From Fimbriimonadaceae bacterium (GTDB lineage Bacteria; Armatimonadota; Fimbriimonadia; Fimbriimonadales; Fimbriimonadaceae), in assembly GCA_019454145.1 (NCBI GenBank), contig CP075366.1, forward strand, positions 2,211,564 through 2,275,563: 64,000 nt of DNA, given 5' to 3'. A model generated the notes under the pieces. The model worked only from the letters and a program-made list of their open reading frames with translations, made no database searches and was not told the DNA's origin. The position numbers were made by a program, and so were the translations under genes. Positions 8,314 through 10,130 of this stretch are shown here, piece after piece (the first letter of the stretch is position 1; every line of letters begins with the position of its first letter).

Positions 8314-8387
8314 GAATATTGCCCTGTAGAGTTTAACGCGGGAGCGCGCTGATCGGTGTCAAAAACTGACAAATTAAAAGGAGAAAA

Positions 8388-8405
8388 CCCCGATCGGAAT
8401 CGGGG
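8388..8405 (-). terminator. Intrinsic terminator after flgM
   Basis: A seven-base-pair GC-rich stem (CCCCGAT/ATCGGGG) has a four-base loop and is followed on the minus strand by TTTTCTCCTTTT. It lies 40 bases past the flgM stop and ends that short transcript before the GH26-like gene. Confidence 0.85.
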
Positions 8406-8444
8406 TAATCGGTTGGGAGGATTGGGGTGTCCCAGGTACGAAGC

Positions 8445-8705
8445 TTATTCTTTGATTCGGTCGGCAATCGCGCGCCGGATCATGGTTTCGGTGATTTCTT
8501 CGCCGGTTGGATTGTAGTTGCCGGCTTCGATTCTCGCTTTCAAATCAGCGATCATGTCTTCTCGGTCTGGCATCGCGTTGACTTTCGCGGTGACGTCGGC
8601 GACGAGATCAGCATCGGTGAGCTTGATAACCGCAGCTTCAACTTTATGTTTTGCAATCGGTTCGCCTTTTTGAATTTGTTCGATTTGTTGAGTTGATATT
8701 TTCAC
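8445..8705 (-). CDS. flgM: Anti-sigma-28 factor FlgM
   Basis: This 86-residue protein matches FlgM: a short polar N-terminus, then a helical C-terminal part with MPDREDMIADLKARIEAGNY and an ETMIRRAIADRI tail. The D..R...I..L...I..G.Y pattern is the sigma-28-binding region. FlgM holds FliA inactive until the hook-basal body is complete and then leaves through the flagellar exporter. The start is GTG at 8705, with AGAGAGG eight bases upstream. It is monocistronic: a terminator follows and a c-di-GMP-I riboswitch precedes it, so its level is probably set by cyclic di-GMP. Confidence 0.8.
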   Translation of the reverse strand: MKISTQQIEQIQKGEPIAKHKVEAAVIKLTDADLVADVTAKVNAMPDREDMIADLKARIEAGNYNPTGEEITETMIRRAIADRIKE

Positions 8706-8730
8706 GCTTTTGACCTCTCTTTAGTGCTCT

Positions 8731-8815
8731 CCGATTTGGTAACCCGGCGATCTCAGTGAGACCCGTGGCTTTGCGTGAGTAGAGTTGCCTCTATCGTGCC
8801 GTTTCGGTCGAAGTC
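8731..8815 (-). ncRNA. Cyclic di-GMP-I (GEMM-I) riboswitch upstream of flgM
   Basis: Read on the minus strand, the leader contains the GEMM-I hallmarks in order. GGCACGA is followed by a hairpin UAGAG-GCAA-CUCUA with a GNRA tetraloop, then ACGCAAAGCC. A second hairpin GGUCUC-ACU-GAGAUC and the closing CGCCGGGUUACC follow. Outer bases CCGA and UCGG can pair to form P1. The aptamer ends about 17 bases before the flgM Shine-Dalgarno sequence, and no terminator is visible between them, so control of translation is the likely mode. The third hairpin is shorter than in the best-known members. Confidence 0.82.
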
Positions 8816-8933
8816 TGTGCGTCCTAGTAAGTATCACGGTAGGTTCCTAGTAATTCTCTAGGGGCCATAAGGTCGGAAAGGGCCAAAAGTCCTAGCGGGA
8901 GCCAGTGTAGAATAGGCGTAGAGAAATTCAGAG

Positions 8934-10130
8934 ATGATTCGGTACCACGCACTCGGCAAGCTTCCCGCAAAGAAACACATTCAGTTTAGAGATGAATCCG
9001 GCAATTTGTACGCTGAACAGTTGTTTAGCACCCACGGATTCAGCGGGCCGATGAGCACGATGTATCACATCAATCTGCCGACAGAAGTCAAAGCCTGGTC
9101 GGATATGGGATCGGTAAAGCCCATATATTTGGATGACGAACCGTTACGCCATCGCCATTTGGTCACAAACCGCATGGAACCAACCGGCAACTTTGTGACT
9201 GGTCGTAGAGTGCTGATGGGCAACAACGACTGCACCTGGGCGCAGGTGTGGGTGAAGGAGGCAATGCCAGAAAACCAGTTCTTCAAGAACGCTGAAGCCG
9301 ACGAAGTTCTGTTTATCCACAATGGCTCCGGAACCCTGGAGACCATGTACGGCAACGTGGAAATCCGCAAGCAGGATTACCTCTACATCCCACGCGGAAC
9401 GATCTATCGCCTGAACTTCGACAGCTACCCGGTTCGCATGATCGCAGTGGAGAGTTTTAGCCCGGTCACCACGCCACGCCGCTACCGCAACGAATACGGT
9501 CAGCTTATGGAACATGCGCCTTATACCGAGCGCGACTTCCGCCCACCGCATGAACTCATCACGCATAACGTTCGGGCTGATCACGAAGTCATTGTGCGGA
9601 GCCGGAATCGCCACACGCTTTACACCTATCCGTTCCACCCGTTCGATATAGTGGGTTGGGATGGCTACGTTTATCCGATGGCATTCAACATCAACGATTT
9701 TCAGCCGATCACAGGCAAATTGCACATGCCGCCGCCGATTCACCAAACATTCCAATCGGGTGGGTTTGTGATCTGTTCGTTCTGCCCGCGAATTTTAGAC
9801 TTCCACCCAGAGGCGATTAAGATTCCGTACAACCACTCGAACGTAGATAGTGACGAGGTTTTGTACTACTGCAACGATAAGTTCGGTAGTCGTAAAGGGA
9901 TTCAAGAAGGCTCGATCACTTTGCACCCGCTGGGAATTCCGCACGGCCCGCAACCTGGCGCGGTCGAAGCCAGCATGCCGCACACGGAAACCAAGGAACT
10001 AGCCGTGATGCTGGATACTCACGCCCCTCTTAAACTAACTCAGGATGCCGTGGCGATCGAAGACCCGGATTATTGGAAGAGCTGGCAGACCCCGACTCAG
10101 GGCAACGGGTTAGATGATCCAGGTCGTTAA
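8934..10130 (+). CDS. hmgA: Homogentisate 1,2-dioxygenase
   Basis: This 398-residue bicupin Fe(II) enzyme opens the homogentisate ring to maleylacetoacetate in tyrosine/phenylalanine breakdown. Iron-ligand regions are visible as YNHSNVDSDEVLYY (H301 onward) and LHPLGIPHGPQPG. FIHNGSGTL and DYLYIPRGTIYRL form the N-terminal cupin. Length fits the family (400-440 aa). The following pathway steps (maleylacetoacetate isomerase, fumarylacetoacetase) are not in the window. It is divergent from flgM; the intervening leader holds the riboswitch and a CCTAGTAA direct repeat. Confidence 0.92.
   Translation: MIRYHALGKLPAKKHIQFRDESGNLYAEQLFSTHGFSGPMSTMYHINLPTEVKAWSDMGSVKPIYLDDEPLRHRHLVTNRMEPTGNFVTGRRVLMGNNDCTWAQVWVKEAMPENQFFKNAEADEVLFIHNGSGTLETMYGNVEIRKQDYLYIPRGTIYRLNFDSYPVRMIAVESFSPVTTPRRYRNEYGQLMEHAPYTERDFRPPHELITHNVRADHEVIVRSRNRHTLYTYPFHPFDIVGWDGYVYPMAFNINDFQPITGKLHMPPPIHQTFQSGGFVICSFCPRILDFHPEAIKIPYNHSNVDSDEVLYYCNDKFGSRKGIQEGSITLHPLGIPHGPQPGAVEASMPHTETKELAVMLDTHAPLKLTQDAVAIEDPDYWKSWQTPTQGNGLDDPGR

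Follow-up and report, generated by a model that had tools for sequence, protein, structure and literature searches.

A cyclic di-GMP-I (c-di-GMP-I, GEMM-I) riboswitch aptamer lies directly upstream of flgM, which by Pfam encodes the putative sigma-28 inhibitor FlgM, in a Fimbriimonadaceae bacterium, and the same pairing of aptamer and gene is found across the Armatimonadota. We predict, with a probability of about 0.72, that this riboswitch controls FlgM translation, with an ON switch as the most likely mode of action. The window analyzed was a 64,000 nucleotide stretch of contig CP075366.1 (GenBank assembly GCA_019454145.1), and its features are collected in Table 1. The original prediction, made from the letters of the window, had placed a GEMM-I riboswitch in the minus-strand leader of flgM but gave neither direction nor mechanism; the translational ON switch and the sigma-28-type promoter are added here.

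The window was scanned against 4227 Rfam families using cmscan. The region upstream of flgM matched the c-di-GMP-I family RF01051 over the full model (1-87) with 45.3 bits against a gathering threshold of 35 (E 1.2e-5 for the 64 kb window and 4227 families). This was the sole Rfam match in the whole window, and a permissive rescan of an 801-bp stretch again listed RF01051 as the only family. The original prediction had named a score below threshold as grounds for its rejection; the minus-strand search it had proposed scored above it. The pieces it had read from the leader were present and in order, namely a GNRA-capped P2 hairpin, ACGCAAAGCC, a second hairpin and GCCGGGUUACC. P3 was aligned by the RF01051 model, and at the sequence level both the GNRA tetraloop and the P3 receptor were found. 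The aptamer ended about 15 nt from the Shine-Dalgarno sequence and 29 nt from the flgM start codon, in agreement with a position just before the Shine-Dalgarno. The third stem was very short as described, but it was not unusual, as aptamers of 76 nt were common among relatives (70 to 107 nt). A single-sequence fold of the window leader alone was uninformative (z -0.32). The source genome, complete in one contig of 2,758,789 bases, carried one copy of GEMM-I, placed at its single flgM.

Table 1. Features of the flgM locus in the window (all on the minus strand)
Feature	Coordinates	Strand	Basis or remark
Intrinsic terminator-like hairpin just 3' of flgM	8387..8406	-	terminator scan
flgM, anti-sigma-28 factor, GTG start, 86 aa	8445..8705	-	PF04316, 33.5 bits against a cut-off of 25
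Shine-Dalgarno region AGAGAGGUC	8712..8720	-	sequence
P1 3' strand UCGGAG	8729..8734	-	pairs with CUUCGA 8808-8813
c-di-GMP-I (GEMM-I) riboswitch aptamer	8735..8810	-	RF01051, 45.3 bits
Vc2 C92 equivalent (pairs with ligand)	8739	-	Rfam alignment; contacts from PMC4744006
Vc2 A47 equivalent, A	8772	-	Rfam alignment; contacts from PMC4744006
P2 hairpin UAGAG-GCAA-CUCUA, 5-bp stem, GNRA loop GCAA at 8785-8788	8780..8793	-	sequence and covariance model
Vc2 G20 equivalent, G	8800	-	Rfam alignment; contacts from PMC4744006
P1 5' strand CUUCGA	8808..8813	-	pairs with UCGGAG 8729-8734
Anti-Shine-Dalgarno GACUUC, overlaps P1 5' strand	8810..8815	-	GAGGUC 8712-8717 is its partner in the free minimum-energy fold
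ACGC, partner of GCGU 8704-8707 at the start codon	8819..8822	-	fold and relatives
Putative sigma-28 -10 box CCGTGAT	8833..8839	-	scored with the -35 box
Putative sigma-28 -35 box CTAGAGA	8855..8861	-	10/14 together with the -10 box; the strong boxes of relatives lie at the same position

The gene following the aptamer encodes the sole PF04316 match in the source genome. Its product scored 17.6 bits with the NCBIfam equivalog TIGR03824, under the cut-off of 40.75 of a model that may not cover this phylum, and was 98% identical to FlgM of the Fimbriimonadaceae MAG ACE_ARM7. A PDB sequence search using the 86-aa FlgM as query returned no meaningful match. As a terminator-like hairpin follows flgM directly, the gene is probably transcribed alone and is probably the only gene controlled. 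The source genome also encodes a FliA-type sigma factor scoring over its curated cut-off, flagellins and 11 GGDEF proteins. The divergent neighbour (8934-10130, plus strand) is a homogentisate dioxygenase-like cupin that scored far under the hmgA equivalog cut-off; it also lies beside flgM in genome G015.

Conservation of the arrangement was assessed in 113 genomes of the bacterium's taxonomic class, among which 90 had GEMM-I and 92 had a Pfam FlgM. Of 94 GEMM-I matches, 82 lay 120-205 nt before a FlgM domain on the same strand. Nine more, all from one genus, preceded ORFs starting with MQIS that were missed by Pfam but were homologous to FlgM of sister genera (phmmer E 1e-7 to 1e-24), bringing the total directly 5' of flgM to 91 of 94. 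In a phylum search of 291 genomes at least 48 genomes outside the class, from 10 families, carried the GEMM-I-flgM pair, counted among the matches listed (the best ~150). Comparison of flgM leaders in relatives, which the original prediction had suggested, upheld flgM as the target. Accidental shared gene order was ruled out as the source of this placement: flgM has different neighbours from genus to genus, so the aptamer and flgM travel together. The three remaining GEMM-I matches of the class (L003 1501-1589, L004 389-482 and L007 1501-1597) lay before secreted subtilisin-like (S8) proteases in two genera and were among the highest scores of the class. Eleven class genomes had flgM with no detected GEMM-I (G008, G009, G023, G036, G054, G055, G056, G068, G069, G072 and G080); in these the aptamer was either lost or is too diverged for the model.

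In the Vc2 riboswitch of Vibrio cholerae the residues G20, A47 and C92 contact c-di-GMP (PMC4744006). The window aptamer shares with Vc2 and the RF01051 class the covariance model, the tetraloop and these contact bases. The C92 place was C in 92 of 94 relatives; the flgM-linked G090 (L090) and the protease-linked G043:C15 (L007) carried U. The G20 place was A in the flgM leaders of G028, G049 and G050 (L081, L012 and L011), making these three aptamers candidates for another ligand.

The pairings available downstream of the aptamer were compared between relatives. P1 covaried within the genus (CCUCGA/UCGAGG, CCUUGA/UCAAGG and UUCGA/UCGAA). The anti-Shine-Dalgarno pairing, which shares bases with the P1 5' strand, was also kept in relatives in the general form GACUU(C) with (G)AGGUC, including GACCUC in G090. 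In place of the outer helix ACGC/GCGU, G088 had CAAC/GUUG and G091 had GACUG/CGGUC. Main-family leaders differed, their P1 3' strand UGUCUGAAAUC being complementary to flgM codons 3-6 (GAUUUCAGACA) and forming a sequestor hairpin with the Shine-Dalgarno and AUG in its loop. Among 35 distinct main-family leaders 87.5% of the cells of this sequestor were paired at the proper register as compared to 28-48% when slid by 1-4, and none of 1000 permutations among species reached the observed pairing. The Ser4 wobble base was paired in all 35 (UA in 28, CG in 5, GC in 1 and GU in 1), and the codon TCA was used at Ser4 in 44 of 88 cases compared to 24 of 237 among the remaining serines of flgM. Other families had CUGUCUCC as P1 3' strand facing the Shine-Dalgarno GGAGGCAG, or CUGUC facing a GACAG next to the Shine-Dalgarno. 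In clades other than that of the window the sequestor is located entirely downstream and is formed with the 3' strand of P1, which makes it mutually exclusive with P1. In 76 of the 91 class leaders the free fold joined a P1 strand to the ribosome-binding zone through 4 or more base pairs. The interval from aptamer end to start codon was 13-87 nt (median 29) and TTTT was absent from it in all 91, which makes translation the likely controlled step; the terminator scan of the window found no intrinsic terminator between aptamer and flgM.

Leaders outside the class showed further designs. In L162, L166, L177, L179, L180, L181 and L184 a GUUUGCC complementary to the aptamer strand GGCAAAC was followed by a U-run, possibly a transcriptional version of the same ON logic. 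In further families (L170-L175, L186-L198) the flgM Shine-Dalgarno was almost always GGAGGCAAA, which resembles the GGCAAAC strand of the aptamer and might form pairs with the UUGCC of the aptamer 3' strand.

Accessibility of the ribosome-binding site was modelled by computing, for the 91 class leaders, what it costs to open positions -13 to +6 when P1 is forced and when it is not. The bound state was modelled solely by forcing P1. Shuffled and synonymous controls were run because forcing any upstream helix itself biases toward opening of downstream sequence. The mean opening cost fell from 8.24 to 4.76 kcal/mol when P1 was forced, and in the window leader from 7.7 to 3.7 kcal/mol. The site became easier to open by more than 1 kcal/mol in 75 of the 91 leaders and harder by more than 1 kcal/mol in 2. 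The mean drop was 3.48 kcal/mol compared to 1.34 with shuffled linker and codons and 2.14 with random synonymous codons (Wilcoxon 7e-14 and 1e-9, respectively, P values that are too small because the leaders share descent and are not independent). Ligand binding closes P1 in the c-di-GMP-I class. Together with the freeing of the site by forced P1, this predicts an ON switch.

The opposite direction was weighed against this prediction. In a translational OFF switch the ligand would close the aptamer along with an outer helix hiding the flgM Shine-Dalgarno, and c-di-GMP would lower FlgM. We consider this unlikely, although the window genus lends it some plausibility: in the window the two strands of the Shine-Dalgarno helix (8810-8815 and 8712-8717) flank the aptamer on either side, and this helix can be read as an extended P1 and is already present in the free fold. 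As an internal loop also separates P1 from the ligand pocket in this genus, a nested OFF design is conceivable there, and OFF is how the best known flagellar GEMM-I, Cd1, acts (PMC5386303). The exclusive downstream sequestor of the other clades argues against it, as do the folding counts, in which forced P1 so seldom hindered opening. With an OFF switch, furthermore, sigma-28 activity would rise with c-di-GMP, which runs counter to the usual motile-to-sessile logic.

Two further alternatives, both much less probable, concern the ligand and the step controlled. In Geobacter, GEMM-I variants whose G20 place is A respond to cGAMP. Another cyclic dinucleotide such as 3',3'-cGAMP is an improbable ligand of the aptamer; the three relatives with A and the precedent of pilM (PMC9262584) speak for it, but the G20 place is G in the window and in 91 of 94 relatives, and the 11 GGDEF proteins of the source genome also weigh against it. 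About equally improbable, and if anything slightly more so, is a role of the aptamer in transcription (termination or mRNA stability) or as a ligand sponge, with flgM translation unswitched. This would fit the U-run after an aptamer-complementary strand in some families outside the class and the proposal that the merRNA of Bdellovibrio stores c-di-GMP (PMC3627812), but between aptamer and start codon the class leaders lack a four-U run and the window lacks a terminator-like site, and the covariation points at the ribosome-binding site.

We also looked upstream of the aptamer for a sigma-28 promoter (TAAAG-N15-GCCGATAA type). A sigma-28-type promoter (CTAAAGA, 13-18 nt, CCGATAA) ended about 20 nt before the aptamer in most flgM leaders. 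At least 11 of 14 positions matched in 75 of the 91 class leaders and in 38 of the 40 leaders outside the class, compared to 3-4% of shuffles and 1 of 22 GEMM-I not at flgM. The boxes in the window, 22 nt upstream of the aptamer and in the same position as in relatives, were weaker, and their score of 10/14 was also reached by ~23% of shuffled leaders. Inspection by eye of the flagellin upstream regions of the source genome gave no obvious sigma-28 box, and the promoter call therefore rests on the relatives. From these sequence matches flgM seems to be sigma-28-driven. One GEMM-I not at flgM (L147 1501-1590) had a perfect sigma-28-type promoter (14/14) 22 nt upstream, and a formate-tetrahydrofolate ligase-like ORF started ~530 nt downstream of it.

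Under the ON switch that we favor, flgM mRNA would be made from the sigma-28-type promoter with its 5' end just before the aptamer. When c-di-GMP is absent a P1 strand would pair with the Shine-Dalgarno region and start (GACUUC/GAGGUC and ACGC/GCGU in the window), little FlgM would be made and sigma-28 would be free. When c-di-GMP is bound, P1 (CUUCGA/UCGGAG) would close under the ligand and release the Shine-Dalgarno, FlgM would be made, turning down sigma-28 together with the late flagellar genes. As flgM itself seems sigma-28-driven, this would be a feedback loop, and the switch would determine how strong it is. For the Armatimonadota as a whole we think it probable that an old, vertically kept GEMM-I ON switch acts on a sigma-28-driven flgM, giving a negative feedback loop with a c-di-GMP-set gain and, in many species, an off-state hairpin reaching the flgM coding sequence.

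This design shares features with several known systems. Unlike Vc2 and the rest of the RF01051 class, the target is flgM, and the platform makes use of the flgM ribosome-binding site and, for many relatives, of the first codons. Cd1 of Clostridioides difficile is a GEMM-I before the flgB operon that ends transcription as an OFF switch from a sigma-A promoter (PMC5386303). Both lie before flagellar genes and both yield less motility at high c-di-GMP (predicted here), but Cd1 acts on an early operon by transcription, whereas here the gene is the brake flgM, the switch a predicted translational ON and the promoter of sigma-28 type. The pilM riboswitch of Geobacter metallireducens, with cGAMP as ligand, uses a transcription terminator before pilus genes (PMC9262584); it is likewise a GEMM-I ON switch whose aptamer and off-state fold are mutually exclusive, as predicted here. 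The non-coding, very abundant merRNA of Bdellovibrio bacteriovorus, a proposed ligand store (PMC3627812), is also a c-di-GMP riboswitch in a FliA (sigma-28)-dominated lifestyle, but is not at flgM. In RsiG-WhiG of Actinobacteria c-di-GMP binds the anti-sigma protein and strengthens it against a FliA-family sigma factor (PMC8325347), whereas here c-di-GMP is predicted to set the amount of anti-sigma factor via RNA. Searching the open full-text literature, which lacks most subscription papers, we found no paper on a c-di-GMP riboswitch at flgM and no report on GEMM with an anti-sigma factor or on an Armatimonadota riboswitch of this kind. The aptamer is of a known class; within the literature searched, the flgM target, its conservation across the phylum and the design of the switch appear undescribed.

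C-di-GMP stops swimming via proteins, motor brakes and the C. difficile early-operon riboswitch. If our prediction is true, high c-di-GMP would raise FlgM, leaving less sigma-28 free and lowering the late flagellar proteins, and this is the usual direction, with more c-di-GMP giving less motility. A riboswitch placed on an anti-sigma factor would connect the second messenger with the entire late flagellar regulon by a short and direct path, as the RNA counterpart of the protein-level RsiG-WhiG switch. The conserved arrangement suggests that Armatimonadota stop swimming by turning on the sigma-28 brake directly with c-di-GMP, and its conservation over a poorly studied phylum makes this a sharp, testable prediction of motility control.
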